Source: Chloroflexota bacterium
GTDB taxonomy: Bacteria; Chloroflexota; Anaerolineae; Anaerolineales; Villigracilaceae
DNA length: 42,001 nucleotides
Direction of reading: 5' to 3'
Assembly: GCA_026390015.1 (NCBI GenBank)
Contig: JAPLGS010000108.1
Coordinates: 1-42,001, forward strand
The notes under the pieces are model-generated. The model did no database searches. It was given only the letters and a program-made list of their open reading frames with translations, and was not told the DNA's origin. Below are positions 10,611 to 30,625 of this stretch, piece after piece (position 1 is the stretch's first letter; every line of letters starts with the position of its first letter). A program made the position numbers and the translations under genes.

Positions 10611-10801
10611 GGATAACTTCTTTTTTAGGTTGGATGTGGAAAACCGCCGCTGCCCCTTCGCCCGGGGTTGAATCACGCGGCATGGCACTTGTGCAACCGT
10701 GCATGTGTGCTGCACTACACTCCGATGAAGTTACGCGGCTCTTCTTTGCGCTGACCAACACCTCCTTGACGCACCAAAACCCTTCCCTGGTGCAGTCCTG
10801 G

Positions 10802-11011
10802 CTTCCTTGATGATCGTTTATCGTGCCTTACAGTACCTCTACGGTTCCTTGATGGTGGATTCTCGTCCCTTGATGGTGGTTTGTCGTTCCTTACAGCCCG
10901 TCTGCGCTTCCTTGATGGTGGTTTGTCGTTCCTTGACGATGGATTCTCGTCCCTTGACGGTGGTTTATCGTTCCTTACAGCCCGTCTGCGCTTCCTTGAT
11001 GGTGGTTTGTC
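10802..11011. repeat. Tandem array of ten 21-bp units
   Basis: Ten contiguous 21-mers run from 10802 to 11011, such as GTTCCTTGATGGTGGTTTGTC-type units alternating with TTACAGCCCGTCTGCG-type units. An 84-bp higher-order period of four units appears about two and a half times. Weak relatives extend left to about 10760. Because 21 is a multiple of three, both strands stay open. The minus frame would give a basic heptapeptide repeat (NDKPPSR, KRRRAVR, DENPSSR). No ribosome site or homology supports translation. Confidence 0.75.
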
Positions 11012-11136
11012 GTTCCAGTGAAATAACCAGTATCCGCCCTTCTGACCTAATGTCAGAAGCTTATTCGTCACAAATCTTTTGGAAAACGATCCGCATAAAA
11101 AGCAGAGTCTCTATCCCCGCAACACTATGGGAACCA

Positions 11137-12260: not shown

Positions 12261-12551
12261 TATCCATGAGCCTGATGAGGCATTCTCCTTATCCATTTTG
12301 GCAGGCTCTCCATTTACATCGTCTGCAGGAAGAGTTTCCTGGTAGTTAAGCGCGATAAAGCTGAGCATCGGAACAATTACACCTACGAAAGCTACACTCA
12401 TTCATGGTAGATCGGGAAGTATGGGGGAAAGCCAATCAAAAGTCTGCATTAAACCGAGATAAGCAATCGAGGCAAACGGCCCTGCAGAAATTGCCAAGTA
12501 AGCAGCCAGCAAGTTTTGCGAACGGCGAGTCCTTACAAGGCGAACATTCAT
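12261..12551 (-). pseudogene. Broken membrane-protein remnant
   Basis: An ORF from 12551 reads MNVRLVRTRRSQNLLAAYLA and then SAGPFASIAYLGLMQTF before a stop at 12402. The overlapping frame starts at 12401 with MSVAFVGVIVPMLSFIALNY and runs on, in frame, into the AbiEii-like gene. Together they look like two transmembrane helices of one protein split by a frameshift at the CATGAATGAG overlap. I cannot name the family. Confidence 0.4.
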
Positions 12552-12657: not shown

Positions 12658-13344
12658 TTAGTCCCTACGCATCATTGCGTAACTAAAAACTCCACTTGCC
12701 AGCAAAAACACAACAATAGCCGCTGTCGCCATATTTTTTTTTGTAGATATTCCGTTGACCGCATTTGTATCAACCTGGTTTGGTGTTAAGGCAGCATTGG
12801 CATCGGGAGCCTCCCCCGATGAATTTACACCAATTAATCCATTTATCTTTGTCGTGGTGATTTCCTGCGCATCTCTAGTGGATAGAATAGCCGAGTCTAT
12901 ATTGATCTGGCTTGTTCCTTTATCTTTTGCTTTGAGAGTAATTGTTGCGACAGTTTGTTTGCCGGCAATTGGCAGGGCGGGATTGAGCAGTGTTACCGCG
13001 AAATCAATTTTTCCAGCAATATTATCCACCTTGTTGCTGGCAATAAACCCATCCTTCCATACATCTGTGGAGGCGATCTGAATGCCATCTTTCGTCAGAT
13101 CCGCGTCAACGACCTCAACGAATTGAGGATTAAAGCTGAGGTGAAACTCCAGCGCATAAAGATCGTGCACATTCTCAATTATTAAGGAAACGGTGCCATT
13201 TGAATCGGGCTTCAATCCTATTCCCGTCGGATCAAATTGTAAAACCACATTTTGGTCCTGCGCATTTACACTCGTAGGTGACAGTATTCCTGCCAGGATA
13301 ATTCCAAGTAATGCCAATGAAATAATAATCGATTTTTTCTTCAA
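12658..13344 (-). CDS. Membrane-anchored cohesin-domain surface protein
   Basis: The 228-residue protein has a signal peptide (KKKSIIISLALLGIILAGIL, cleavage near VNAQ), then a cohesin-type domain of about residues 30-175. It shows the beta-sandwich markers FDPTGIGLKPDSNGTVSLII, LYALEFHLSFNPQFVEVVDA and KINGLIGV. A C-terminal helix (AAIVVFLLASGVFSYAM) with RRD behind it anchors it in the membrane. Translation starts at TTG, overlapping the TGA of the previous gene (TTGA), with GAGAGGT upstream, so the genes are translationally coupled. Cohesins bind dockerins. Two dockerin-bearing proteins are encoded just upstream. Confidence 0.82.
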   Translation of the reverse strand: MKKKSIIISLALLGIILAGILSPTSVNAQDQNVVLQFDPTGIGLKPDSNGTVSLIIENVHDLYALEFHLSFNPQFVEVVDADLTKDGIQIASTDVWKDGFIASNKVDNIAGKIDFAVTLLNPALPIAGKQTVATITLKAKDKGTSQINIDSAILSTRDAQEITTTKINGLIGVNSSGEAPDANAALTPNQVDTNAVNGISTKKNMATAAIVVFLLASGVFSYAMMRRD

Positions 13345-14135
13345 CCCGACCTCTCTTTTTTTGTTTTCTTTCGCTTTGATATAAGCATCCGCATTGACAG
13401 TATTATTAACAGAATCGCGCCTCCAAACCCCGCGTAGATAATCGCAGTATAAACTCTATCGGAATTTATATTTTCAGGTGTATTTGAAGATGGATCGTTT
13501 TGGACAGTTGAACTTGAAGTTGGGGTTTCTATCAGAGCAGTGATCAATTCAACTGTTGGTGTGAAAGACGGTGTAACTGCAAGAGATAGTGTAGGCGTTG
13601 GTGGCTTGGGAGGTACTATAACCAAATCTCCGCTTTGATCTTCATTCGGCATCTTATTTCCGTGTTGATCTGCAATTTGAGCGGATGTTATAGTTAAATT
13701 AGATTGCCCTCCCAATATTTTCCCGCGAAATTGAACCAACAGGATAACCCCAGTGCCTACGGCGGGTGGAGTAGGATTGACTTGCGCGGCAACGTAGTGC
13801 AGTGTTCCAGCCGCGTTATCTGCCAGATTGATGACGATAAAATCTGGTTTTATGAAATCGCCGGGGATCATTTGTATACCGTCCCGATCCGGGTCAGAAT
13901 CCACAACTTCGACAACATTAGGGTCAAAGGTGAGTTGATAATCAACCCCATAAACTCCCTGGGCATTCTCCAAAATGATCTTTACGGTTTCGACCTGTCC
14001 CTCTCCAATTTGTAATGTGGGGGGATCAGTACGAAAAACAGCGTTTCCGCCCTGGGCAGATACCCATTGAAAAGATGTAAAAAAAAATAAAAGAATAATA
14101 ATTACATAAGGGACAACATGTCGTTTTGATCGCAT
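13341..14135 (-). CDS. Membrane-anchored cohesin-domain surface protein with PT-rich stalk
   Basis: The 264-residue protein has a signal peptide ending near VSAQG and a cohesin-like domain of about residues 30-175 (FRTDPPTLQIGEGQVETVKI, VYGVDYQLTFDPNVVEVVDS). A Pro/Thr/Ser stalk follows (PPKPPTPTLSLAVTPSFTPT onward), and a C-terminal helix near residues 233-252 is followed by KRKKTKKE. It is a paralogue of the next gene, with which it overlaps by 4 bp. Its start follows AGGAAAAATT. The lengthened stalk suggests it projects further from the cell. It is a plausible docking site for the secreted cohesin-dockerin proteins. Confidence 0.82.
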   Translation of the reverse strand: MRSKRHVVPYVIIILLFFFTSFQWVSAQGGNAVFRTDPPTLQIGEGQVETVKIILENAQGVYGVDYQLTFDPNVVEVVDSDPDRDGIQMIPGDFIKPDFIVINLADNAAGTLHYVAAQVNPTPPAVGTGVILLVQFRGKILGGQSNLTITSAQIADQHGNKMPNEDQSGDLVIVPPKPPTPTLSLAVTPSFTPTVELITALIETPTSSSTVQNDPSSNTPENINSDRVYTAIIYAGFGGAILLIILSMRMLISKRKKTKKERSG

Positions 14136-14165
14136 AATTTTTCCTGAATGCCTATATTATACACA

Positions 14166-14201
14166 AGAGATGGCGCTCAAAGGTACAAGAGCGCCATCTC
14201 T
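14166..14201. terminator. Perfect 13-bp intergenic hairpin
   Basis: AGAGATGGCGCTC pairs with GAGCGCCATCTCT around a 10-nt loop, between the dockerin gene at 14228 and the cohesin gene at 14135. A T-run follows only on the plus side, so it may be an mRNA-stabilising or attenuating hairpin for minus-strand transcripts. Confidence 0.6.
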
Positions 14202-14227
14202 TTTTATACTATTTTATTAGACAGGGA

Positions 14228-15916
14228 TTACCAGCCTTGCGGTGCTAACAAACCGTAGTTGCCGCCAGGCAGGACGAGATCAAGAATATTGACCAGGCCG
14301 TCTGCATTGATGTCACTGCTGCCCGTTGCGCCGCATGTGACAGGTGCAGCACCAAACGAACCTGAGATGCATGTTATGTCACTGACATCGATCAGCCCGG
14401 TGTTATCCGCATCGCCGCCTTTTAGCTTCGTGGCTGCGGCCGCATAAGTTTCTCCCGGCATCAACGCATGTGTCATCCGATTGCCCAGATACAAGCCGTG
14501 AGCGGCATCAAAAGTGTAGTTCGTGCCACCAGGCATCACCTTAATGTTAGGGATGCTCCATGCACCAGTACTGGAGTTAAAGTTCGCTGAGTAGGGTCCA
14601 AATGCCCCTGTCAATGTGACTGTACCTGAATTGATCGGTGTCGGGCGCCCTTGCAGTGACACCACGCCGTTGACTGTGGCAAATCCACAGACCGTCAGGT
14701 GTACTGGCCCGCCGACTGTATGCCCGATGACATTCGCGTCACGGTCGGAAAGGATGTCACCAGCTCCAATGGTCACGTCGAATTCACCAACTTGTAAGCC
14801 TGTGAAGTTGATCTCTGCCACTGTCCCTGAACCATTTGAAGGAGTCTGCGGAGCAAGCTTGCTGACTGAGAATTTGCATGTTCCAGCGGAACAGGTTGCG
14901 TTCCAGGGGGCATAATCGCCGGTCGTGTCAAAGAACGAATTGTTGAAGGCGCCTGTTGCGCTTACTTTCGTGGCATCGTAGTTCACTTGGAACTGGTAAC
15001 CATAGAGATTGGCAACATCGTTAAGATTGATCTTGACCTTGCTCGTCTCACCCGTGCAGAAGAGAGGGGTGTCGGTGGTGGGCACAATGCTCGTGCCTGG
15101 TACAGGGGGGGCAAGGGTAACATCAAAGCGAATGGCTGGCACGTACGGTGTCCATCCGGTGTCACGTCTGAATGTGCCTGTGATGCCGCCACCTGTATAC
15201 CAACCTGCGGTTATGGTGTTCCAGAATACAGCATCTGGCTCCACGTCGGTTCCTACGCTGGGTACTGTTGTATTGAGCGCAAAGTTGAGTGAATTGTATG
15301 GGCCGGGTACTCCGATTGGGGGATTCCCGTACGTCTGTGTATTTGATGCGATACCGTAAATGATCTCGTCCGGCAGGGTAATGCCTTCACTGCTTAGATC
15401 AAAAACAACATTAAAAACAAAGCCATTGTAGCAGTTCGTGTCAGGCGCGCCGGGAGTTTTTTGCCACTTGTACGCGTAGCCCGGGTTATCCTTTGTCGGA
15501 CAGTTGGTAGGATCCTCGGCTGGACGCCACTGCATCACAAAATTCTTCGTGACAGTTTTGATCAATGATCCAAGCGCCGGAGTTGCTCCGCTTTTGTCAA
15601 CATTGTAGATGTTAAGCGTGAGATCATGGTTAAATCCGGCTGCAGGCATTGCTGGATATTCGGAATGTAATGCCCAACCGCTCATGGTCACCGTCACACT
15701 CGAAAGGTTGCGTTCAGTTCCAGCGAAGTGGATATAATCACCGACTTCAGTCGCTTGTTGTGCCTGATACGGCTGGCTGGGTAAATTGCCAGGTAATGGA
15801 TCAGGTATGCTGTTGAAGATTGCTGTGCTGGCAGCGGACACGCCAGTAACAAAAGTTAATGGAATTACCATACAAAGAACAATCAATATGCTGATCAACC
15901 GTTGAAATTTTTTCAT
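14228..15916 (-). CDS. Secreted protein with cohesin and dockerin modules (1)
   Basis: The 562-residue protein has a signal peptide (about 1-28, cleavage near VSAAS) and an N-terminal domain of about 30-280 that I do not recognise. A cohesin domain follows at about 285-405 (TPLFCTGETSKVKINLNDVA, YGYQFQVNYDATKVSATGAF). Next is a carboxypeptidase-regulatory/CNA-B-like beta domain (GVVSLQGRPTPINSGTVTL). A type I dockerin closes the protein from about residue 497, with calcium loops DADNTGLIDVSD and DINADGLVNILD and a terminal PQGW. Having both partners on one chain allows self-association or chain building. The last ~280 residues are nearly identical to those of the next upstream gene. The start follows GGAG. 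Confidence 0.88.
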   Translation of the reverse strand: MKKFQRLISILIVLCMVIPLTFVTGVSAASTAIFNSIPDPLPGNLPSQPYQAQQATEVGDYIHFAGTERNLSSVTVTMSGWALHSEYPAMPAAGFNHDLTLNIYNVDKSGATPALGSLIKTVTKNFVMQWRPAEDPTNCPTKDNPGYAYKWQKTPGAPDTNCYNGFVFNVVFDLSSEGITLPDEIIYGIASNTQTYGNPPIGVPGPYNSLNFALNTTVPSVGTDVEPDAVFWNTITAGWYTGGGITGTFRRDTGWTPYVPAIRFDVTLAPPVPGTSIVPTTDTPLFCTGETSKVKINLNDVANLYGYQFQVNYDATKVSATGAFNNSFFDTTGDYAPWNATCSAGTCKFSVSKLAPQTPSNGSGTVAEINFTGLQVGEFDVTIGAGDILSDRDANVIGHTVGGPVHLTVCGFATVNGVVSLQGRPTPINSGTVTLTGAFGPYSANFNSSTGAWSIPNIKVMPGGTNYTFDAAHGLYLGNRMTHALMPGETYAAAATKLKGGDADNTGLIDVSDITCISGSFGAAPVTCGATGSSDINADGLVNILDLVLPGGNYGLLAPQGW

Positions 15917-15931
15917 TTTTATTCTCCACTA

Positions 15932-15965
15932 GATGTGACGCTCATGCTTCCATGAGCGTCACATC
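15932..15965. terminator. Perfect 15-bp intergenic hairpin
   Basis: GATGTGACGCTCATG pairs with CATGAGCGTCACATC around a CTTC loop. It sits between the two cohesin-dockerin genes. No U-tract follows on the minus strand, so partial termination or transcript protection is as likely as full termination. Confidence 0.6.
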
Positions 15966-15989: not shown

Positions 15990-17579
15990 TTACCAGCCTT
16001 GAGGCGTTGTCAAGCCGTAGTTACCACCAGGCAGGACGAGATCAAGAATATTGACCAGGCCGTCTGCATTGATGTCACTGCTACCCGTTGCGCCGCATGT
16101 GACAGGTGCAGCACCAAACGAACCTGAGATGCATGTTATGTCACTGACATCGATTAGCCCGGTGTTATCCGCGTCACCGCCCTTCAACTTCGTGCTGGGA
16201 GCAACATAACCGGCCGTTGTCAGGAGCTGTGTCATTCGATTGCCCAGATACAAGCCGTGTGCCGCATCAAAGGTGTAGTTCGTCCCACCCGCCAATACTT
16301 TGATGTTGCTGATGCTCCATGCACCAGTAATGGGATCAAAGTTGGTTGAATACGGTCCAAATGTCCCGTTTGTCAATGTGACCGTACCAGCGTCTTTCGG
16401 AGTCGCGCGGCCTTGCAGTGACACTACACCGCTGGCTGTGGCAAATCCACAGACCGTCAGGCGCAATGGTCCGCCGACTGTATGCCCGATAACATTCGCG
16501 TCACGGTCGGAAAGTATGTCGCCAGCTCCAATAGTCACATCGAACTCACCAGCTTGTAAGCCTGTGAAATTGATCTCTGCCACTGTTCCTGAACCATTCG
16601 ATGGAGTCTGCGGAGCAAGCTTGCTGACTGAGAATTTGCATGTCCCAGCAGAACAGGTTGCGTTCCAGGGGGCATAGTCACCAGTTGTGTCAAAGAACGA
16701 ATTGTCGAAGGCGCCCGTTGCACTGACTTTTGTGGCATCGTAGTTGACCTCGAACTGATAGCCATAGAGATTACTAATATCGTTGAGGTTGATCTTGACT
16801 TTGCTCGTCTCACCCGTGCAAAAGAGAGGAGTGCTTGTGCCCAAATTTAATGTTGAAAGCGGCTCAAAGTTATAGATATCGGTATTCCCGCCGATCTGAA
16901 TGGTCAGATTATCAACATTACCGGCAAAGCCGTTCCAGTTTGAACCAGCCTTCACCAAAATAAATGATGACGCATCGTTGCGAATACCAATATTTGGGTA
17001 TGCGGCAATCAGGGCTGACAAAGTGCAAGGAGAAGCTTGAGGGCAGGTATCATCTACAGGAGATTTTAGATTGAGACTCGCCCACCATTTACCATTCCCG
17101 CCATTGAGCATATCCCAGGTTTGCCACGTACCATTAACAACTGTTCCATTATAGTAAGGTTCATACACAAGACGACCATACCAGGAACTTTCTATAGTGG
17201 TTATATCTGGATCGTAGTTAATTTGGAAGGCCAACGCTGCCGGGGAAAGGTTGGTATATGTTGAATAACTTAATGTCTGAATATTTGAAAGCAGAGTACC
17301 TTGATATTTCTGTGTGCCGAAAATAATTCCCGCTCCAGCACTATTCAACTTAATCGAGGCACTACCAACACCCAACGGTGCGGCACCTGGACCACTTTCA
17401 AAACCTGTTGACCAGTCTCCTGTTGTTCCGTTGTCATTGACAAATATCCAATCTGTTGAAGCAGATGTGACCACTATGTTATTAGTAACACCACTTGCCG
17501 CTACACTCGTTACCAGTGTGAAAGACATGAGGAGGCTTAGTACAACCATAATGCTGATCAAACGTTGAGTGATTTTCAT
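15990..17579 (-). CDS. Secreted protein with cohesin and dockerin modules (2)
   Basis: The 529-residue protein has a signal peptide (about 1-28) and a distinct N-terminal domain of about 30-245. That domain resembles a lectin-like beta sandwich (STDWIFVNDNGTTGDWSTGF, SFILVKAGSNWNGFAGNVDN). The cohesin, CNA-B-like and dockerin modules follow, almost the same as in the gene at 14228 and ending in the same calcium loops and PQGW. The two proteins differ mainly in the N-terminal module, so they are module-swapped duplicates. The start follows AAAGGAG. The lectin-like assignment is inference. Confidence 0.87.
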   Translation of the reverse strand: MKITQRLISIMVVLSLLMSFTLVTSVAASGVTNNIVVTSASTDWIFVNDNGTTGDWSTGFESGPGAAPLGVGSASIKLNSAGAGIIFGTQKYQGTLLSNIQTLSYSTYTNLSPAALAFQINYDPDITTIESSWYGRLVYEPYYNGTVVNGTWQTWDMLNGGNGKWWASLNLKSPVDDTCPQASPCTLSALIAAYPNIGIRNDASSFILVKAGSNWNGFAGNVDNLTIQIGGNTDIYNFEPLSTLNLGTSTPLFCTGETSKVKINLNDISNLYGYQFEVNYDATKVSATGAFDNSFFDTTGDYAPWNATCSAGTCKFSVSKLAPQTPSNGSGTVAEINFTGLQAGEFDVTIGAGDILSDRDANVIGHTVGGPLRLTVCGFATASGVVSLQGRATPKDAGTVTLTNGTFGPYSTNFDPITGAWSISNIKVLAGGTNYTFDAAHGLYLGNRMTQLLTTAGYVAPSTKLKGGDADNTGLIDVSDITCISGSFGAAPVTCGATGSSDINADGLVNILDLVLPGGNYGLTTPQGW

Positions 17580-17856
17580 TTATTCTCCTTTATATGAAAA
17601 TGGATAATTTATTTTAAGAATATGGACTTACATGGAGAAATTCAGGTAAACTTCTCCCTTCTCTGAGTTTCTGGTCATATTTTTTTCTTCCCTAATAACT
17701 GCCTCCTTTTTTGTAAAAATAAATACAATGCACAAATAATATGCAGGTACTTACCCAGTAAATTTATGCCTACTTTACTGGAAAGGATATTTATGTACGT
17801 TATGAAATTCTTATGAATTCTTAGGATGTCCCCCGGACAGTCCCCCTGCCTTCAGT
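17580..17856. other. Intergenic region upstream of the cohesin-dockerin genes
   Basis: This 277-bp AT-rich region must hold the promoter for the genes from 17579 downward and the end of the response-regulator transcript. The dyad CCAGTAAA-n11-TTTACTGG at 17755-17781 could be a weak terminator or operator. The tripartite element of the oxidase promoters is not present here. Confidence 0.4.
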
Positions 17857-19158
17857 TTACGGTTTCGGTATCGTGAAATTAGCCATACCATTAGGCCCAA
17901 AAGAGCAAGGATCAGTTCCCGGGCAATGCTCCGTGCCGGGTTCCAAGTCTAAATAATTTGTGATCGTAATGCTGGCCAGACTCTTATATTTAACTTCCTT
18001 CTCAGAGTCCGCCTCAAAGGGAACCTTATAGGGATAACAATGCGACTCACTTGGACTGAGTACAGGTTTCTCATCGAGGTTTAAAGTAGTTGAGACAACA
18101 TTATTTTGGTTTTGATCAAGCGTTTCAACACTGTTTACAATGGATAATTTCTCTGTGGGATATTCCCCGATGTTTGTTACACAAATTTGCCCGCGCACAC
18201 CTGTAATATCTTCCTCGACGAATCCTTCAGCCGTGATCAACATTTCAAGGGATGTGCTCCCTTTCACGGGGCTGGCAAAAACGCTAAAAATACTTCTGGT
18301 TCGTAATGCCAAAATTACCAGCAGGATTATGAGGGAAATCCATAGCCACATATGTTTTTTGGGGTTGACAGATTTTGCCTTATCTTTAACACGCCTGTCA
18401 AAATTATGCACGTCTGAGCTGCGTCTGTCAAAGTTGTGAGCGCTAATGGGTTCCGGAGATTTTGGCAAAGGGTTGAAAGAATATCCCCGCCCCCATTGTG
18501 TTTGGATGTATTTATGTTCCTTGCTATCATCGTCCATCAATTTTTGTCTTAATTGATGGATATAGAGCGAGAGCACACCCTTGTCATGACTGTAACCATC
18601 CCCCCAAACTTCGGTCAGCAAGGTGCGGGTCGAGAGTGTCTGGCTTGGATGTTGTATGAGAAGTGAAAGCAGCTCAAATTCGGTTGCGGTGAGGGAAACG
18701 GAATTTCCTTTGACAGAACAACTTCGCTCGATCAGATCAATCTTGAGAACATCATCCGAGTAATTCTTAATGGCAACATTATTTATATTAACATTTTTTC
18801 CGCGCCTTAATAGAGCCTTTACTCTCGACAAAAGTTCGTCCCTGGCAAAAGGCTTTTTGAGGTAATCATCCGCGCCAACCGCGAAACCATGTTTTATATC
18901 AGCGGTGGCGCTTCTGGCAGTCAGCATTAAAATCGGGACGGTTGTGATCTCGCGTAAACTTTTGCAAACATCGAAGCCACTCTGCTCCGGCATGGAGACA
19001 TCCAAAATTATTAGATCAGGGTGCTGCTCATAAGCGATGTGTAAACCGTCGGATCCACTTGGCGCCAGGAAAACCTTATAACCCTCCAGACCAAGAATTT
19101 TTTCAAGCAGTCTCAGGGAATCAACATCATCATCTATAGTAAGGATTTTTTTATCCAT
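17857..19158 (-). CDS. OmpR/PhoB-type response regulator with a transmembrane helix and extracellular domain
   Basis: The 433-residue protein begins with a complete receiver domain: acidic cluster D9-D11, phospho-acceptor D53 in LIILDVSMPEQ, threonine in ILMLTARS, lysine in DDYLKKPF. A winged-helix DNA-binding domain follows at about 135-235 (SLTATEFELLSLLIQHPSQT, VLSLYIHQLRQKL, IQTQWGRGYSF). After a linker with two HNFDRR copies comes a helix (WLWISLIILLVILAL, about 272-290) and about 140 residues predicted to be outside. That outer domain is Ig-like: GVRGQICVTNIGEYPTEKLS, SHCYPYKVPF, LASITITNYL, with four cysteines. Response regulators are normally soluble, so the fusion is highly unusual. 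No histidine kinase is adjacent. Control of the surrounding surface genes is inferred. Confidence 0.9.
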   Translation of the reverse strand: MDKKILTIDDDVDSLRLLEKILGLEGYKVFLAPSGSDGLHIAYEQHPDLIILDVSMPEQSGFDVCKSLREITTVPILMLTARSATADIKHGFAVGADDYLKKPFARDELLSRVKALLRRGKNVNINNVAIKNYSDDVLKIDLIERSCSVKGNSVSLTATEFELLSLLIQHPSQTLSTRTLLTEVWGDGYSHDKGVLSLYIHQLRQKLMDDDSKEHKYIQTQWGRGYSFNPLPKSPEPISAHNFDRRSSDVHNFDRRVKDKAKSVNPKKHMWLWISLIILLVILALRTRSIFSVFASPVKGSTSLEMLITAEGFVEEDITGVRGQICVTNIGEYPTEKLSIVNSVETLDQNQNNVVSTTLNLDEKPVLSPSESHCYPYKVPFEADSEKEVKYKSLASITITNYLDLEPGTEHCPGTDPCSFGPNGMANFTIPKP

Positions 19159-21600: not shown

Positions 21601-21635
21601 TGGACGGATGTAACCAGTTTGATCACATCCGTCCA
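21601..21635. terminator. Perfect 11-bp hairpin after the giant oxidase gene
   Basis: TGGACGGATGT pairs with ACATCCGTCCA around a 13-nt loop, between the oxidase stop (21695) and the lipoprotein start (21559). It lacks a strong U-tract, so the lipoprotein may still receive read-through. Confidence 0.6.
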
Positions 21636-21694: not shown

Positions 21695-24600
21695 TTACTT
21701 GATCGTGATCGTCACTGTGGCGACAGCGCTGCACAATTTCTCTGTCGTCGCAGATTCGCAAGCCTTGTATGTGAAGATCATATTTCCGACAAAGTTGCTA
21801 GCTGGAGTAAAGTTGAACGAACCATCAGCGTTGAGTATCAATGTGCCGCTAACTGGTTTCGTGACCAATACAGCATTGAAGATATCGAGGTTCAGGTCTT
21901 TATCGTTAACCAATAGTCCAGTAGATTTACTCACTGTAAGCTTGGAATTCTTTTTGCCTATGTAGCTGTCGGCAGCGGCGGTGGGGGCGGCGTTGACTTT
22001 GATCGTGGCTGTTACGACATTACTGCACACGCCTCCGGGGATGTTCTCACAGACTGCATAGGTGAATGTGTCTTTTCCAACAAAAGAGGCAAGCGGCGTA
22101 TAGATCAATGAACCGTCTTCGTTGACCATCAATGTTGATCCAGATGCCAGAGTGATCAGACTGCCGACATTCAAGTTACTGCCATTGACTTCGCCGATGA
22201 TGATCGGGTCGCCGTCGGGGTCTCTATCATTGGAGAGCAATCCGGGCGCGGCTAATGTCAACGAAGGAGTACCAGCCGTGATCGAGTAGGAATCGGCGGC
22301 GGCTATTGGGGCTTTCCCAACAGAGATACTGACTATCACTGGGCTGCAGGTGGCGCAAACCTTGTATTGGAAGGTATCCGTGCCGGTGTAGTTGGCGGGC
22401 GGTGTGTACTTGAAAGACCCATTCGCGTTGAGTGTGATCGAGCCGCCAGCTGTTGTTTTTGATCCGCTGGATAAAGTGGCGGTGAAGGTGTCGCCATCAA
22501 GATCAACATCGTTGGCAAGCACACCGGGAAGAGATACATTGCGGATCGTATTCTTAGGCGTTGTGTAAACATCAGCCTTAGCCATGGGTGCGCTGGTATT
22601 CTTGCGCATGATGCCCCATAAACCCTGGTAACTTCCGAAGGAGGCAAAGTCGCGGAACAGGTAATCGCCATTGGGGTCTGCGCTTGTTGAGACCACCATG
22701 TTAAAGATGCTGCCTGGGCCGATACCTTCCTGGCTGCCGGTCCACCAGGCGCTCGAATTGGGTCCGATCTCAGTTGAGTTGTTCATGTATGGTTCACGCT
22801 GCCAGGTGTGACCGCTCAAAGTGTACACGATTCCGCGCGCATGGCCACCGGGTAGAATGACGCGCATACGCACCTGGCTGGGGCCATTCGGGCTGACGTA
22901 GAAGACTTCTGTTTGTGGATCGCCGCCAACCAGATCATTGGAAAACGCGAGGTGGGTATCCGTTCTGTTGAGCAGAGATTCAAAGGGTGTTTCAGGAGAG
23001 ACTCCCAAACGATACCAGATCGGGTCGGCGCCATAGTTGACAGCTTTGTGACCTGAATCCTGCGGGTCCTCAGGGGTAAATCCGCCTTCAGAAGCGACAT
23101 TCTTCACAGCACAGAACAGGTTGTCCAGCGAGGGTGTGCAGCCAGAACTAAAGCGGAAGTTCACATCCGTTTGGAGAACGGTAACAAAGTCACGGAATTT
23201 GGAACCATCTGTTTTTGTTACTGTGGCCGAGGCTCGTGAGCTTGGATCTTCGATCCAAGTTGAACCTTTCGGCTCAACGATCAACGCGCCGACCAGTCCC
23301 TTGCCTGAACCTTTGATGCGGTCGGCGGGTAACAATCCGATGGAGCCATATTCTACAGGGGTCGCGACCAATTTGAAGTCGGTTGTGATCGGTGTGCTGG
23401 TATCGGGGACCATGTCAACATCACCGGCATACCAGGTGAATGTCTTTTTCGCTCCCGATGAAACCACTGAGTCGAGGTTATTGCGCCCGGCTGCAAAACC
23501 ATCTGCCTCGCGGACGTTGTAAGCCAGCAGCTGCGGGTGTAGACCGACCACGCTCGAAGGAGTAATATCGTTATTGTTGAAGGTGATGATGCCGCTGCCA
23601 AGGATCGGATCTGTAACGAAACCTTTTTGGACAATCCCCGGTAGAACACTAAAGCCGGGCATATCGGGGCGTGCGATGCCGTTAGTATCTGTCCATGTCA
23701 AACTTGCAGGCAGAGCGTTCGTCAATGTTAATTTGATGCAGTCACCGGCGCGGGCGCGCAGGATCAAAGGTTCAATTGGTGTTCCGGGTCTGAGGCCGAT
23801 CGGCTTCCCAGTGGGGTTGAAGAGCAGATCTTCAGTACGTACATACATCAAAGCGCTCGGATCATTGAGGGGGCCGTTCCCGACAGGAGCGAACTGGGTG
23901 GCTTCACCGGTGATCGGATCGAAGGCAACTGGGCCAGTGAGTGATGTGGCACGGGTGTTGTAAACCAGGCTTCCACCAGGCAGAACATCAGCAGCGCGGA
24001 CAGCGGTCACGTTAATTTTTGCGAGCGGGGCAGTGTTCGGGCAGATCTTATTGAAATCCTTCTCATTGGTGATCGCAAAGGGAGTGGCTCCAATTGGATT
24101 ATTCGGCAACGCCAGAAGACCGGGTGTGGCTTTGTTGTAGGCGCGCATGATACCCCAGATGCCGTTCCAGTAATCCTCGAGCTGGGCACCCATTGTATAA
24201 AGGTAATCTGTCTTATGCGGAGTCCCAACGCCAATATCTGGCAGGATCGGCATCTCCATGATGGCGTATTCTGAGATACCCATGAATTCGGCATTTTTCC
24301 AGCCGGAGTTGCCTGCCTGAGGTTCCTTCTTCCACTTGAGACCGTGGATCATGAAGTTATGTTCTTCTTCATGTGCGCCTACTTGAACGCGCAAGCGGAT
24401 CTTGTCACCCATGTATACACGGAGAAGCGGAGTGGCCGGGTCACTTGGGTCAACGCCCTGAGTCAGCGGCGGGTAGGCCGTGAAGGGTTGATTCAAAGCT
24501 GGGATGGCGCGCGTGATGAGCGATGAGAAAGCGTATGCGAGATCACCAGCCTGGCCAACAGCCTGAGATTTCGTCGCCGGGTCGTAAACACGCAGGCCGA

Positions 24601-27600
24601 TCGGCTCATTGCGATAGTTGACTACATAGGTACCAGGGTCGGCGCCAGAGATGGCCTCGGGACATGGGCGCGGAGATCCATCAGGGCAGATCGGCGGAAA
24701 GAAATAGATGGATGACTCAGACCCAACGGGTGGTTTTACCCTGAAGGATGGATTGATGGCGTTCGGGAAGTCGGCATAGGAAGTGATGGGTAGACCGGCT
24801 CCATTATCGATGGTGCTCTTGGCTCCACCACCCTTTTGATAAGCATGTTGGAAGTCGGCGAATTCGAAGTAGAACTCGCGATGACTCATATCCTTGCCGG
24901 TGGAATCTTGGATGTTAATGATATCCGCGCGCCAGGAGGTCGGACCGCCGTCATGGCGGGTGCCCATCATCACACCGGTCTCGGGATCGCGATATTGAGC
25001 GCCGGAAGGCTCGATCAACACGGTGGCGTACAAGCCAACTTGTTGATGGGTGGAAGGTCCATAATGATCGTGGGTAAAGACTGTGCCCAATCCTTTATCC
25101 CATGAAATGTTCAACATCGGATCCGCGTACCAGCGTTGGACAGTGGTGCGAGCGCCCACCCAATCGCCGACGCCATCGCCATTGTTATCCGGCCCGGCTC
25201 CAAAGAATGGATGAACCTGGGCTTCGGGGCAAGCATAGCCGCTGCAGCCATTGGCTTTAATGGCGTGCACGCGTTCCTGCACTTCCATCGGGCTGAGCGT
25301 TCCGTCTTCGTAATTGAAACCGTTGGCAGAGCCGTCGGAAGCGGTCACATCGAATTTGACGAGGTGAATGTGCTGGCCAATGATGTCAGTAGGTGTGCGT
25401 ACCTGGTAATCATCCAACTCATACACGTTCGGTACAAGATTGGCATGCTGATAACTGGCACAGTCGCCAACATTCAAGCGCATGACCAATGGCTCGGGGG
25501 CCTTTTTACCATCGAGGACGGGCTTGGCGTCATCCCAAAGTGTAATAATACGCTGCTGCGGGAAGTGCCAGCCAACCTTGTTCATGGTCAGGTCAAGTTG
25601 AATATCAACACCCTTGTAAGTTTTGTTCTGCGGAATCGCGCTGACAGTCCAGCCATTCGCGGCCGTTGGGTCTGTGCGGCATGGCTCAGCGAAGGGAGCT
25701 CCTTGTTGCGGAGGCAGACCGTTCGTCTCAAAACCTTCCACGGGACGTCCGCTTGCGGCGAAGATTGGATTCGCTGCGCTGACAGGTGTGCCATCTGGCA
25801 GATAGGATTCGTGCCAGAGTGTCGAATGAAATTGCATCGCCACAACTTCTGCCGCGGTACCTGTTTCGGGTATGGGCAGATAGCCTACGTTGAGCAGTTC
25901 CTTGTTAAAGTCGAGCCGTGTTTGATATTGCTCATGGGTCACGCCGACCTGCTGTCCGCCGGTGATGATATGGCGGGGCAAGCCTCCGTCGTTAAGAATA
26001 TCCAACACCGGGCTGGGCGGGCGGTGCCCGGCAACTCCGGGGATATAGAATGGGAAGCCAGGATTTGAAGAAGGTACCACATCAAACGCACTCACGAGGT
26101 CCGCTATGCCATTTGAATCCAGATCGTATTGGCTCGAGTCTAGGATGCCATCGCCATTTTCATCATAGGCAACTATCGCGACCTTAGAATCTGGCATGGG
26201 AGCCATGGCCTTAACCGGTCTAGCCTGATTGGGCATGATTGGCGCGGAGCTGGGTAATGGAACGATACCGGGGATGGGAGTACCAGCGAGGATTTCGCCA
26301 TCGGGCAAGGCGCGCGCATGTTTCAGCGGAATGCCGTTTGCGTCGAGTTCAGTTCCCTGCTCAAACGTATCGTGAGTACGCCACATTTCCCACATGCCCA
26401 TGGCAAAGTGCGGGTAGAAGTGACAATGGAAGATGGAATCGCCCAAACCCTTATTGCGATTTCCTGAACCGCCGTAGGCGATCTCGTAGGTAAAGCCGGA
26501 GCCTGGGCCAATGCCCTGGCTGTCGAGATAATTGGAGTTGGGATCATTCCAGTTATACTGCCATTGATGGGCATGTAAATGGAAGATGTGATGTTCCTTG
26601 GGACCCGCATGTAACTGGCGGAACTTGATGTGGTCGTTCAGGTAGGAGTGGTGCACATTGGAAGGATCATCAGGATAGAGAGCCTTGTTGGCGCGCAGGC
26701 CGTTGGGGACCATGGTTACAGGATCTATTGTCTGGTTAGCCGGAACATCAACGATCATGGCTGGGTCACCGACAGCGGTGGATGTCAGGAAGAATTCCTC
26801 ATACTTACATTCCACGCAGTTTGCCATTGGGCCGACGCCCAAACGATTGGCGATGATCTCAGATCCAATGCCGCCTGCGCCGTAATTGATAGCGAAGCCG
26901 TCTTTGACGATTGCCAGTGCGTGAGAAAGCTTTGGGTCATTATAAAATTGAGGGAAGGCCTGAACGGCGAAGATCTCATCATGAAAGATAACAGTAAACT
27001 CACGGAAGGGTTCACCGCGATCCTGAGCACCGTAGACATCGTCGGCCAGATAATAGCCAGTGGGGAAATCGCTGCGCCCGGGTCCACTAATGACCGCATT
27101 GATATCGGAATGTACGATCTCGCCGTCATAACCAGCCTTGGGCGCCAAAAGATTTATGATGGGCAAACCGGCTTTGCCGAAACCCGCATCAGCGGGATAA
27201 ACCGCATCGTAGTTCAGGATCGGTTGTCCGCCAGGCGTGGTGCGATGAGCATCCCAGACGCCATTGTTATTTGTGTCGGTCAGAGCTTCGCCGGGCAGGG
27301 TTATATCCAATATTCCATTATTGTTTGTATCGACAAAAGGTTCGGCAGCGACAGCTGCATCCCAAACGCCATTTCCATTTGTGTCGGTGAATGTTTCAGC
27401 AGATACGGCTGCGTCCCACACGCCGTTTGAGTTTGTGTCTGTGAATGTTTCAGCGGGAATTTCTGCATCCCAGATGCCGTTATTGTTTGCATCGACAAAA
27501 GGTTCGCCAGCATCCCATGCGCCGTTTCCATTTGTATCGGTGAAAGTTTCGGCGGGAACAAGTGCATCCCAAATGCCATTATTGTTTGTATCAACCAAAG

Positions 27601-29680
27601 GTTCAGCGGCCACAGAAGCATCCCAGATGCCGTTGTGGTTTGCATCGACAAAAGGTTCAGCGGCTACTGCGGCATCCCAGATGCCATTGCCATTTATATC
27701 AGTGAATGTTTCTGCGGGTAGTGCGGCGTCCCATTTGCCATTGCTATTCGCGTCGACAAAGGATTCAGCGGGCGTGGCCCAATCCATTTCAACGCGGGTG
27801 AGCTGACTGCGATACCACTCCGATTGCCAGCCTGCGCCGGCAGGTTCAACATTTACAGCGCCGAATAATCCGTAGGAAAGTGTTCCGCCTGTTCCTTCAC
27901 CGCCGGCCGTGACGCCCATATCGTAAAGCAGATAGGTATTTTCATACTGGGCATGTAGTGTATAAACCGTGCTGCCACCTGGGGCGACCAGACTGCTGGC
28001 ATTTTTCCCAACAAAGGAACCGCTGTCACTAATGCTGTTGGAGACCTGCATGCCATTGACTTGAATACCCACGTTTCGATCAGCGGGTTGTCCACCGAGA
28101 GCGATGGGATTGAGCAGGTTCGTGAAATGGATCTCAAGACAATCCCCAATATTGGCGCGCAAGACGATCGGGCGCGGCCGTTTGTCTGAACGCAGGGAGA
28201 CCTGTCCAGCGGCGAGGGTTCCGCCTGCCAATTCAGTCAAGCCGGTATTATTATCAACCACATCGCGGCGCAGGGCGTACATCATGCCGGCCGGGTTCCA
28301 TGCGCCAAGGCGATTATAGTAAAACTGCTGATCAATCGCGACCACGTCAGTGTAGATGATGCGGGTACAGGAATTTGCCAGCGCAGTTTGAGGAGTCAGA
28401 GTTAAAGCAAGCGATGGAGTTGCCAGGAATGTTACAGCCGTTAGTATTGTTCTGAGGACAAGGCGTCCACTCCAGGCGGGCTGGGCAGTTTCCTGAATAC
28501 GTGATTTGCGTCGAAGTTTCTGTTCATCCTGCAAGACCGAGGCATCCAGGAAAAAGATGATGAATAGCGCAATGCCCAGGTTGACGGGCAGTGCGGCCAA
28601 TCCGTCAGATGCTGCATGAGCCAGCAAACTTGTTTCTTCGGCTGCTGCCTGATTCGTTAAAGCATAGGCGCTATCAGCGCTGGTGTCACCCTCGTGGCTG
28701 TGATCTACCGTCGCGAATGGATATGCTGTTGTGTCCGCTTCGTGAGCATGGCTGTTGAAGAGTGCATTGTGCACTGGAACGCCAAGCATGAAAACAACTG
28801 TTGCAGCAAATCCAAGGATGACTGCCAGTACAGGTTTTTGGAAAGCCTGGCTTAAGAAACGTTGATTATATTTGCGCCAGATGGATACGCCCACGAGGAC
28901 TGCAACTAAAACAGCAGGGAACGCCAGGCTGGCATCTCTAAGCCAATGCAATACCGGAGCAATATTCTGTTCTTCGTGAATACCACGCAGTTCGTGCAGA
29001 TACTGCATCCAGAACAAACCGCCGTAAGTCAACGCCATGGATAGAAGAAGGATCATTCTGCGTTTGGCGGAGAACAACGCCTTGGAAAGTTCAATAAGGG
29101 ATGATCTGTTTAACTGAAATGAAGGTATGGCCGCCGCTTGTGTTTCCAATTCCTTGAAAGCCAACATTGCAAGCAGTGTGATCACCAGATTGACCAGGGT
29201 CAGAGATGACAAATCTTGAAGAATGACATGAAGCCGCGCGGTTTCAAATCTTGAAAAGTTACTGAATATGGCATCCACGATCTGGAAACTGCTCGAGTTG
29301 ATCGTGCGGCAGACGCTCACCATCAGCGCGAAATCGTTTCCGATACCGGTCTTCAAGAAGCGATTGGCTTCCACCACAACCAAAACAATTGAGGTCAAAA
29401 TGCCCACAAGCGCAATCGTCAGGGATGATTGCGCCAGAATGGATATGCGTCCGTTGGAGCGGGCGCCAATCCATTGGGCAATGACAGTCCCGATCCACAC
29501 CGCCAGCATGACCGGTAATAGCATGACGACCGAATCTCGCAGCCAATTCAGGATGGGCGAGGAAGCGGCGATCACTTCATGGCTGTGACCGATCTGGTGC
29601 CAGACATTAAGCCACAAAATGCCGCCAAAGGCGACCAGGACTGTGAGTACAATTTTTTTGGAAAGGGTGTTGAAGTTCAT
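21695..29680 (-). CDS. Giant membrane-embedded MnxG-like multicopper oxidase
   Basis: The 2661-residue protein has four parts. Residues 1-~420 carry about eight to nine hydrophobic helices in two related halves (VLVAFGGILWLNVWHQIGHS; LLPVMLAVWIGTVIAQWIGA; later ALTYGGLFWMQYLHELRG). After a last helix ending TPQTALA, an oxidase region of ~430-2370 has several cupredoxin domains. Its copper motifs include EHHIFHLHAHQW (~1025), FHCHFYPHFAMGMWEMW (~1080), GQHIHLVKFDV (~1435), FTHDHYGPSTHQQVG (~1530) and EEHNFMIHGLKW (~1770). An insert (~638-812) holds ten DxNxNGxWD calcium-type repeats. The C-terminal ~290 residues are three cadherin/Big_9-like domains (VLANDVDLDGD, LLSNDRDPDGD, LVNDKDLNLD). The MnxG family oxidises Mn(II). 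Substrate here is inferred. The start follows AGGAG, and a conserved promoter element lies upstream. Confidence 0.85.
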   Translation of the reverse strand: MNFNTLSKKIVLTVLVAFGGILWLNVWHQIGHSHEVIAASSPILNWLRDSVVMLLPVMLAVWIGTVIAQWIGARSNGRISILAQSSLTIALVGILTSIVLVVVEANRFLKTGIGNDFALMVSVCRTINSSSFQIVDAIFSNFSRFETARLHVILQDLSSLTLVNLVITLLAMLAFKELETQAAAIPSFQLNRSSLIELSKALFSAKRRMILLLSMALTYGGLFWMQYLHELRGIHEEQNIAPVLHWLRDASLAFPAVLVAVLVGVSIWRKYNQRFLSQAFQKPVLAVILGFAATVVFMLGVPVHNALFNSHAHEADTTAYPFATVDHSHEGDTSADSAYALTNQAAAEETSLLAHAASDGLAALPVNLGIALFIIFFLDASVLQDEQKLRRKSRIQETAQPAWSGRLVLRTILTAVTFLATPSLALTLTPQTALANSCTRIIYTDVVAIDQQFYYNRLGAWNPAGMMYALRRDVVDNNTGLTELAGGTLAAGQVSLRSDKRPRPIVLRANIGDCLEIHFTNLLNPIALGGQPADRNVGIQVNGMQVSNSISDSGSFVGKNASSLVAPGGSTVYTLHAQYENTYLLYDMGVTAGGEGTGGTLSYGLFGAVNVEPAGAGWQSEWYRSQLTRVEMDWATPAESFVDANSNGKWDAALPAETFTDINGNGIWDAAVAAEPFVDANHNGIWDASVAAEPLVDTNNNGIWDALVPAETFTDTNGNGAWDAGEPFVDANNNGIWDAEIPAETFTDTNSNGVWDAAVSAETFTDTNGNGVWDAAVAAEPFVDTNNNGILDITLPGEALTDTNNNGVWDAHRTTPGGQPILNYDAVYPADAGFGKAGLPIINLLAPKAGYDGEIVHSDINAVISGPGRSDFPTGYYLADDVYGAQDRGEPFREFTVIFHDEIFAVQAFPQFYNDPKLSHALAIVKDGFAINYGAGGIGSEIIANRLGVGPMANCVECKYEEFFLTSTAVGDPAMIVDVPANQTIDPVTMVPNGLRANKALYPDDPSNVHHSYLNDHIKFRQLHAGPKEHHIFHLHAHQWQYNWNDPNSNYLDSQGIGPGSGFTYEIAYGGSGNRNKGLGDSIFHCHFYPHFAMGMWEMWRTHDTFEQGTELDANGIPLKHARALPDGEILAGTPIPGIVPLPSSAPIMPNQARPVKAMAPMPDSKVAIVAYDENGDGILDSSQYDLDSNGIADLVSAFDVVPSSNPGFPFYIPGVAGHRPPSPVLDILNDGGLPRHIITGGQQVGVTHEQYQTRLDFNKELLNVGYLPIPETGTAAEVVAMQFHSTLWHESYLPDGTPVSAANPIFAASGRPVEGFETNGLPPQQGAPFAEPCRTDPTAANGWTVSAIPQNKTYKGVDIQLDLTMNKVGWHFPQQRIITLWDDAKPVLDGKKAPEPLVMRLNVGDCASYQHANLVPNVYELDDYQVRTPTDIIGQHIHLVKFDVTASDGSANGFNYEDGTLSPMEVQERVHAIKANGCSGYACPEAQVHPFFGAGPDNNGDGVGDWVGARTTVQRWYADPMLNISWDKGLGTVFTHDHYGPSTHQQVGLYATVLIEPSGAQYRDPETGVMMGTRHDGGPTSWRADIINIQDSTGKDMSHREFYFEFADFQHAYQKGGGAKSTIDNGAGLPITSYADFPNAINPSFRVKPPVGSESSIYFFPPICPDGSPRPCPEAISGADPGTYVVNYRNEPIGLRVYDPATKSQAVGQAGDLAYAFSSLITRAIPALNQPFTAYPPLTQGVDPSDPATPLLRVYMGDKIRLRVQVGAHEEEHNFMIHGLKWKKEPQAGNSGWKNAEFMGISEYAIMEMPILPDIGVGTPHKTDYLYTMGAQLEDYWNGIWGIMRAYNKATPGLLALPNNPIGATPFAITNEKDFNKICPNTAPLAKINVTAVRAADVLPGGSLVYNTRATSLTGPVAFDPITGEATQFAPVGNGPLNDPSALMYVRTEDLLFNPTGKPIGLRPGTPIEPLILRARAGDCIKLTLTNALPASLTWTDTNGIARPDMPGFSVLPGIVQKGFVTDPILGSGIITFNNNDITPSSVVGLHPQLLAYNVREADGFAAGRNNLDSVVSSGAKKTFTWYAGDVDMVPDTSTPITTDFKLVATPVEYGSIGLLPADRIKGSGKGLVGALIVEPKGSTWIEDPSSRASATVTKTDGSKFRDFVTVLQTDVNFRFSSGCTPSLDNLFCAVKNVASEGGFTPEDPQDSGHKAVNYGADPIWYRLGVSPETPFESLLNRTDTHLAFSNDLVGGDPQTEVFYVSPNGPSQVRMRVILPGGHARGIVYTLSGHTWQREPYMNNSTEIGPNSSAWWTGSQEGIGPGSIFNMVVSTSADPNGDYLFRDFASFGSYQGLWGIMRKNTSAPMAKADVYTTPKNTIRNVSLPGVLANDVDLDGDTFTATLSSGSKTTAGGSITLNANGSFKYTPPANYTGTDTFQYKVCATCSPVIVSISVGKAPIAAADSYSITAGTPSLTLAAPGLLSNDRDPDGDPIIIGEVNGSNLNVGSLITLASGSTLMVNEDGSLIYTPLASFVGKDTFTYAVCENIPGGVCSNVVTATIKVNAAPTAAADSYIGKKNSKLTVSKSTGLLVNDKDLNLDIFNAVLVTKPVSGTLILNADGSFNFTPASNFVGNMIFTYKACESATTEKLCSAVATVTITIK
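27245..27770 (-). repeat. Ten 54-bp repeats encoding calcium-loop units within the oxidase
   Basis: The array encodes ten units of 18 residues (one of 15), of type EPFVDANNNGIWDAAVAA or ETFTDTNGNGVWDAAVAA. The DxNxNGxxD spacing matches EF-hand/dockerin-like calcium loops. The two unit types partly alternate, suggesting expansion as longer blocks. The length keeps frame, and the opposite strand is also open for 180 codons as a by-product. Confidence 0.82.
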
Positions 29681-30049: not shown

Positions 30050-30625
30050 CTAGCCTGACGATTCACCTCTAGCCGTTTCGAGTCTGCGAAAATTAACTGC
30101 GCCTTCCAATATAAATATTAGGAGAACGCTGATGCCAAGGTTGATCAGCGTCAGATATATTCCATCTTGCAGCAAAACATGATATCGCATGGCTTGAGGA
30201 GTTGGAAAAATTCCCAGGAGTGTCTTAAGTAAAAAACTGCTGTCGAGTAGGATCCTTCGACAAAGGCTGACCTGAATGGCGACTTCATTGCTAATCCCGG
30301 TTCGAAAGACCCGGGTGGCTTCCATCAAGATGATCGCTATGGATGTCATCCCACCTAGAATGGCGGCGGTCAGTATAGACTGAGTTGAGGGTGACATGCG
30401 CCCTTGCGAACGATTTATCAACCATTGCGCAAGCGCTGTGCTGCCCCACACAGCCAGCATAACCGGCAGCAGGATGATCAAGGTGTCGCGCGGCAGACTC
30501 GATACGGCGGGGAAACTCATCCGAGCGCCGTATCCAAATTCATGCCATACGGAAAGCCACATCACACTGCAAAACGCAATTAATACTGCGAGCGCAGATT
30601 TCTTGATTATTGAGTTGATTACCAT
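30050..30625 (-). CDS. Stand-alone paralogue of the giant oxidase membrane domain
   Basis: The 191-residue protein aligns along its whole length with the first ~185 residues of the giant oxidase: KKSALAVLIAFCSVMWLSVW against KKIVLTVLVAFGGILWLNVW, LLPVMLAVWGSTALAQWL against LLPVMLAVWIGTVIAQWI, and EATRVFRTGISNEVAIQVSL against EANRFLKTGIGNDFALMVSV. Four helices are visible (about 9-25, 47-70, 85-105, 160-178). The start follows GGAGCAGGAAC. Encoded between the two multicopper oxidases, it may pair with the oxidase membrane domain, as a heterodimer or assembly factor. Function unknown. Confidence 0.8.
   Translation of the reverse strand: MVINSIIKKSALAVLIAFCSVMWLSVWHEFGYGARMSFPAVSSLPRDTLIILLPVMLAVWGSTALAQWLINRSQGRMSPSTQSILTAAILGGMTSIAIILMEATRVFRTGISNEVAIQVSLCRRILLDSSFLLKTLLGIFPTPQAMRYHVLLQDGIYLTLINLGISVLLIFILEGAVNFRRLETARGESSG

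Follow-up and report, generated by a model that had tools for sequence, protein, structure and literature searches.

On sequence evidence, a single open frame of a Chloroflexota bacterium (17857–19158, minus strand, ATG start, 433 aa) joins a receiver (REC), a winged helix (wHTH), a linker, and a hydrophobic helix to a domain with homologs among exported surface proteins. The fused gene lies in the window, the whole 42,001-nt stretch of DNA analyzed here, whose host is a metagenome-like assembly of 177 contigs (95.24% complete, 3.93% contaminated). We assign a probability of roughly 0.6 to the reading that the product is anchored in the membrane, can be phosphorylated, and regulates the surface genes beside it, with a captured exported domain as its envelope input. 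The wider picture, in which a two-component regulator would be turning into its own envelope sensor by way of a captured export-cluster protein and would act on an operator behind its own gene, is put forward only tentatively.

Domains, topology, and known relatives

The receiver (residues 5–114; 18817–19146, minus strand) covers the full Pfam profile PF00072 (E 2e-28) and has all key residues, namely the acidic D9, D10, and D11, the phosphosite D53, T80, which is a conserved alignment column, and K102. The PhoB/OmpR-type wHTH (residues 151–228; 18475–18708, minus strand) likewise spans the full profile PF00486 (Trans_reg_C, E 2e-22). A basic linker with low pLDDT (residues 231–265; 18364–18468, minus strand) then leads to the predicted transmembrane (TM) helix (residues 266–286; 18301–18363, minus strand) and to an outer Ig-like domain (residues 300–431; 17866–18261, minus strand), which is assigned from homology, predicted fold, and paired cysteines. 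No Pfam family scores above cut-off in the C-terminal half. Four cysteines are located on the outer side (326, 374, 412, and 418) and two, C65 and C147, on the cytoplasmic side. The REC-wHTH-TM-Ig architecture claimed by an earlier, sequence-only reading of this DNA is thus borne out by Pfam profiles, hydropathy, the AlphaFold2 sandwich, and the four outer cysteines.

The topology is based on Kyte–Doolittle hydropathy, charge counts, and AlphaFold2, all of which are predictions. The topology prediction that the same reading had proposed as a check came out in its favor, with one hydrophobic segment and a charge bias for N-in/C-out, the helix being weak in one of two models. Hydropathy peaks at residues 276–294. 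The weakest point of the topology is the shortness, by the standard of membrane helices, of the uninterrupted hydrophobic core (270–285, with R286 and R288 beyond it). Eight K/R and three D/E precede the helix (residues 246–269), while two of each follow it (287–311, R286 being left out of both flanks); by the positive-inside rule, the K/R excess before the helix points to a cytoplasmic N-terminus and an outer C-terminus. The full-chain model (22-row alignment, mean pLDDT 81.9) has a pTM of 0.41, so that the relative placement of its domains is meaningless; it contains one helix at 266–286 after a disordered linker (pLDDT 89 at 271–280 and 62 in the blocks on either side) and a sandwich at 304–429. 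When residues 268–433 were modeled alone (33 rows, pLDDT 82.6, pTM 0.75), the sandwich was again confident, and the helix of this model, which starts at residue 268, was weak and confined to 272–281 (pLDDT 50–56).

The best structural match of the outer sandwich is residues 157–277 of a GH2 beta-galactosidase (Z 12.0, rmsd 2.3, 109 aligned), a domain that we take to be Ig-like. Foldseek rows comprised arrestins, CARDB, GH2 and GH3 enzymes, and Kir channels; they reflect a common sandwich fold only and were set aside as a guide to function. No relative was found among PDB sequences (best row E 0.43). Across 33 aligned domains, the positions of C326 and C374 hold both cysteines in 26, neither in seven, and one alone in none. 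With two columns of slack, those of C412 and C418 hold the pair in nine and none in 23; the one domain with a single cysteine (L079) is a local misalignment, its second cysteine being visible in the alignment. Such pairwise conservation implies two disulfides, which fits an outside location.

Regarding known systems, OmpR/PhoB response regulators are soluble and end after the wing. The window protein shares with them REC and wHTH over full Pfam profiles and a tandem direct-repeat candidate operator with a 10–11 bp period, but it continues for 201 aa beyond the wHTH with a predicted TM segment and the Ig domain and so departs from their solubility. With ToxR, CadC, and TcpP it has in common a cytoplasmic Trans_reg_C winged helix, a single TM segment, and an outer domain; it differs from them in the receiver before the wHTH and in an outer domain of another family. 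The sequence-only reading had set the protein apart from ToxR and CadC because these membrane winged-helix regulators lack receivers, and ToxR and CadC are indeed not known to have them.

Receiver-bearing membrane regulators have, however, already been described: Demey et al. (2023) found response-regulator domains in 9.2% of transmembrane transcription regulators (TTRs) and defined hybrid TTRs as those with two-component core domains, which make up a high fraction of the TTRs in Chloroflexota, among others (PMC10269533). Having a DNA-binding domain (PF00486), a predicted TM segment, and a two-component core (response_reg, PF00072) in one chain, the fused protein is a hybrid TTR by definition. 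The examples in the accessible part of that source are hybrid histidine kinases (HisKA/HATPase_c/Y_Y_Y, Bacteroides; PMC10269533), whereas the window protein has no kinase and combines a PhoB-type wHTH with an exported-type Ig domain. REC-wHTH-TM-Ig was not found in print in a search from which subscription papers and supplements, including the tables of PMC10269533 with a possible REC-wHTH-TM entry, largely fell away, and a literature phrase search for a membrane-bound or transmembrane response regulator returned no paper. The kinase-free REC-wHTH-TM-Ig arrangement appears to be new within the hybrid TTR class, with this one example from a metagenome assembly to date.

Integrity, rarity, and origin of the fusion

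The sequence-only reading had named as its own refutation the case that all homologues stop after the winged helix, implying a sequencing fusion. The first part largely holds: among 102 distinct REC+wHTH frames, only that of the window has a tail of more than 33 aa or a TM segment after the wHTH, and the other 101 end within 33 aa of it. These frames were called by a greedy script in loci resembling the regulator or its neighbors and are no census of the phylum. Other evidence speaks against the implication drawn from it. If sequencing or assembly had gone wrong in the linker and joined two genes, the regulator would end near residue 240 and a TM-Ig protein would start at M270; in line with this, both halves are separate genes in relatives, and frame 2 of the linker meets stops at once. 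Yet HNFDRR stands twice in the linker, encoded by two 18-nt stretches with four differences, all synonymous in the fused frame, as expected of a frame that is translated and kept. Moreover, CAACCCCAAAAAACAT stands directly before ATG270 without a ribosome-binding site, the outer domain is intact, without a stop and with all four cysteines kept, and the operator of the regulator's subfamily, described below, sits beyond the fused stop. We therefore regard such an error as very improbable.

Equally slight is the chance that the locus makes two products, a promoter within the linker yielding a separate TM-Ig protein beside the long regulator. A sequence of the form TTGACA-17-CATAAT (11/12) does occur at 18431–18403 on the gene strand, ~50 nt before ATG270, but promoter-like sites in the region number 15 against 14.9 expected by shuffling, ATG270 again has no ribosome-binding site, and the phylum may not follow sigma-70 rules. 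The sigma-70 scan was set aside as evidence, its sites being no commoner than in shuffles. Terminator-like sites in the region numbered 16 versus 11.2 in shuffles.

The architecture was then sought more widely, a profile search for REC-wHTH-TM-Ig having been suggested as a further check; it is present in the window, and no second copy came to light in the genomes searched. None was found in 201 relatives (the window's own genome included), in 400 genomes of the phylum, or, among the matches listed, in 57 genomes of the genus. The C-terminal part matches four of the 201 relatives, again including the own genome (best others E 2e-30 and 1.5e-27); the three other genomes show no regulator fusion, the frame in one of them (G132) being cut at a contig end. 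Searches for second copies with the C-terminal half turned up no relative in genome contigs and none in viral contigs. In a search of the class with wHTH-linker-TM, the wHTH accounts for the matches in 117 of 298 genomes; past the linker there are, among the matches listed, three besides the window, all of which contain stops and were rejected.

A profile of the outer domain matches nine of 400 phylum genomes (E 1.1e-64 for the window domain, which is one of the rows that make up the profile). The seven newly matched genomes (L064–L070) have Ig frames with signal-like N-termini, six of them with a second module, G-C-x-x-T-x-G-Y/F-W. A pattern scan of 84,980 species genomes, which needs one of two short peptide patterns and misses diverged copies, gave 35 loci with the Ig domain, mostly from Chloroflexota. 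Fusion to REC or wHTH was seen in none of these 35, of which 32 were checked by script and three by frame (L077, L085, and L087), L085 being cut at its 5′ end. By profile and by paired cysteines, the window domain belongs to an exported Ig-like domain family of Chloroflexota. The kinship with secreted surface proteins of the same phylum that had been read from the sequence is supported, the matched exported proteins coming mostly from this phylum.

The regulator half and the Ig half each find their closest match in a genome of the window's genus (G025, whose contig is that of Anaerolineales assembly CHL17), as two unfused genes within the same cluster. Here and in a second genome of the genus (G016), the order is regulator, two small exported proteins, S26 signal peptidase, and TM-Ig protein. 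The G025 regulator is soluble. The peptidase of this cluster belongs to the archaeal/SipW type (TIGR02228, 77.6 bits against a cut-off of 51.85), with 43.1 bits to the SipW model, under the cut-off of 190. The exported and TM-Ig proteins of the clusters, none of which reaches the cut-off of a family model, start with a hydrophobic stretch followed by L/M-W-x-E…G…TG; this start presumably resembles that of SipW substrates such as TasA, and we take the motif on the small exported proteins to be a SipW-type signal. In the named strain Thermanaerothrix daxensis, an exported protein, the peptidase, and the TM-Ig protein stand in a row, with no regulator match within 16.4 kb around the cluster. In G132, a regulator of a different subfamily from the window's, an exported protein, and the peptidase occupy one contig end, the Ig domain lying at another. 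Clusters with SipW-like peptidases and TasA-like exported proteins were observed in Chloroflexota at L077 5845–8700, L136, L137, and L139, T. daxensis being among the strains that have them.

In the window itself, a SipW-like signal peptidase survives as a remnant (12261–12548, minus strand; E 1.4e-12, E 8e-13 over 96 aa, and E 2.5e-15). It consists of the membrane part only, has one in-frame stop, is cut on both sides, and lies between a cohesin gene and an AbiEii-like gene, running into the AbiEii-like ORF. No intact SipW-like peptidase was found in the window genome, TIGR02228 reaching only sub-threshold scores elsewhere in it, and no TasA-like protein was matched there. The Bacillus SipW/TasA export operon is tapA-sipW-tasA. 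Like such operons, the relatives line up a regulator, exported proteins with SipW-type signals, an archaeal-type peptidase, and a TM-Ig protein, whereas in the window the peptidase has decayed and regulator and Ig domain form one chain.

A protease might cut off the outer part, freeing the regulator (regulated proteolysis) or the Ig domain. The V-F-A before S-P that follows the helix resembles a signal-peptidase site, and the Ig relatives of the clusters carry SipW-type signals. Against cleavage speak the two arginines after the hydrophobic core, the state of the local peptidase gene with TIGR02228 below cut-off in the rest of the genome, and the fused protein itself, which lacks what we take to be the export motif, W-x-E…G..TG; we give this alternative little credence.

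The identity of the regulator half is at best 49%, to the G025 cluster regulator, and in a midpoint-rooted tree the three regulators from the window, from G025, and from G016 are the first to split off in their subfamily (20 rows, support 100/99). The best BLAST matches of the outer domain are the G025 and G016 cluster genes. The Ig tree was set aside as proof of descent: the domain sits on a long branch, its placement is not settled by the tree, and the nearest rows by path are not cluster genes. The BLAST matches, the cysteines, and a short N-terminus in common make the TM-Ig protein of a SipW-type export cluster the probable source of the outer domain.

A candidate operator and the neighboring surface genes

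A repeat search revealed a candidate operator, TTCATAA-GAAT-TTCATAA-CG-TACATAA (17791–17817, minus strand), ~40 nt past the fused stop and ~210 nt before the first cohesin/dockerin gene. Its strict two-half-site part, TTCATAA-GAAT-TTCATAA (17800–17817), is the sole exact match in the window, and no other site there comes as close as one mismatch to the relaxed form; with two mismatches allowed, one more site appears in the window, 0.49 being expected by chance. Fusion by a plain deletion between the first and last cluster genes was rejected, as the operator would have been lost or trapped between the two halves. Its position past the fused stop is easier to explain if the Ig piece was inserted ahead of it.

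Immediately 3′ of the regulator, G025 and further loci of the subfamily carry a TTCAAAG-type repeat with a period of 10–11 bp, in many cases with a third, A-rich half-site after it; in G025, the repeat precedes the export genes. Of 19 non-redundant subfamily loci, the window among them, 14 have the relaxed motif TCAWA-N5/6-TCAWA, which was tuned on the same loci where it was counted, no more than 400 nt 3′ of the regulator and on the gene strand, compared with 1/19 on the 5′ side, none on the opposite strand, 0/18 at loci of other regulators, and a mean of 0.25 in 200 shuffles (largest 2). The G016 locus (L043) is outside the 14 and has a one-mismatch site of the stricter form. Overall, an operator-type repeat is present in the window, L042, L043, L046, L049–L057, L059–L061, L029, and L221–L223.

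Among held-out loci, the site was found at L029 (1/1). In other genera of the family, where 25 of 30 loci were parsed (eight subfamily, 17 other), it occurs in three of the eight subfamily loci and none of the 17 others (Fisher p 0.024), the remaining 5/8 being without the motif; another parsing of these loci gave 3/7 versus 0/12. Membership in this set was decided by a gap in E-values, not by a tree: nine matches lie at ~1e-101 or better and the rest at ~1e-71 or worse, and eight of the nine came with a locus. The held-out subfamily strips are more AT-rich (37% vs 46% GC), which helps the motif somewhat.

The strict pattern occurs at three places in the window genome, G000 (the window, C129, and C171), against none for the reversed pattern. 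The C129 and C171 sites do not look like surface-gene sites, and the idea of a genome-wide regulon was dropped. Over ten genomes there are 30 matches versus five reversed; ten of the 30 represent one repeated sequence in G017. This sequence, TTCAAAGGGATTTCATAA, is found ten times in G017:C2 (L191, L201, L210, and L214–L220) and is perhaps part of a repeated element.

The first candidate target is a cohesin/dockerin-like exported protein of 529 aa (15990–17579, minus strand; Pfam Cohesin E 1.4e-9, dockerin below cut-off). A second protein of this kind, 562 aa long (14228–15916, minus strand), was recognized by Pfam and self-comparison; the two are 88% identical over a 283-aa C-terminus and differ in their N-terminal parts. 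Two cohesin-domain proteins, each with a hydrophobic segment near the C-terminus, follow (264 aa, 13341–14135, and 228 aa, 12658–13344, both minus strand; Pfam and sequence). Ten neighbors were picked from four other loci of the subfamily; among them are MatE/Wzx, Wzz, sugar transferases, polysaccharide flippases, and SLH proteins, which fits control of the surface by the subfamily. No histidine kinase was detected among 26 window ORFs scanned with Pfam, and in a crude motif screen of the 20 subfamily loci, with the window among them, no ORF looked like a histidine kinase, the screen's one match (L044) being outside the subfamily. With operator repeats, surface neighbors, and no local kinase, the regulator probably controls the adjacent surface genes and its kinase is probably encoded elsewhere; the adjacent cohesin/dockerin gene is the likely target. 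A link between the regulator and the surface genes nearby had been surmised before, and the candidate operator in front of these genes supports it.

Several other features of the window were observed. A 2661-aa protein (21695–29680, minus strand) has a membrane part at its N-terminus and Big_9 domains at its C-terminus, as well as multicopper-oxidase-like His motifs (by eye) and ten acidic D-x-N-x-N-G-x-W/L-D repeats; a 191-aa paralogue at 30050–30625 is 42% identical to its N-terminus. Hairpins lie between surface-gene ORFs at 15932–15965, 14165–14202, and 21601–21635, with perfect arms of 15 and 14 nt and a terminator-like stem of 16 pairs. An array of imperfect CCATCAAGGAACGACAAACC-like repeats (by eye) at 10715–11071 (minus strand) is open as an ORF by chance.

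Proposed mode of action and significance

In the mechanism that we favor, an unlinked histidine kinase would phosphorylate D53 of the cytoplasmic half, which would dimerize as other OmpR/PhoB proteins do. The regulator would bind the tandem repeat at 17791–17817 and thereby control the downstream cohesin/dockerin surface genes. Since the operator lies beside the regulator's own gene, coupled transcription, translation, and insertion could bring the site to the protein: the nascent regulator would be inserted co-transcriptionally, and operator and regulator would be kept together at the membrane. The captured Ig domain, without an export motif, would remain tethered and might act as envelope input, contact with a ligand or with surface assembly shifting the dimerization or the lifetime of the regulator. 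One chain would thus read phosphorylation inside and the state of the surface outside.

The main rival reading is that the fusion is real and the outer domain a passive anchor left by gene rearrangement, in which case the protein would be an ordinary phosphorylation-driven regulator that happens to sit at the membrane. The singleton architecture in the genomes searched, the decay in the window of the peptidase found in related clusters, and the long branch of the outer domain would all suit this reading, as does the statement of Demey et al. that hybrid TTRs show no conservation at the level of the genus, the class, or the phylum (PMC10269533). An outer part without a stop, its four retained cysteines, and a confidently predicted sandwich argue against it, and we consider it rather unlikely. 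A role of the Ig domain as envelope input, speculative as it is, appears most likely because its cluster relatives travel with matrix-type exported proteins.

The locus offers a natural test of how a two-component regulator becomes a transmembrane one, because the unfused state, the likely donor of the outer domain, and the candidate operator are all at hand in relatives, so that reporter strains can be built with or without either half. The candidate operator provides a handle on a subfamily that, in the loci examined, has no neighboring kinases and stands beside genes for surface polysaccharides and surface proteins. With a candidate site ~40 nt from the gene of a membrane protein, it also bears on the question of how membrane-bound regulators reach their DNA.
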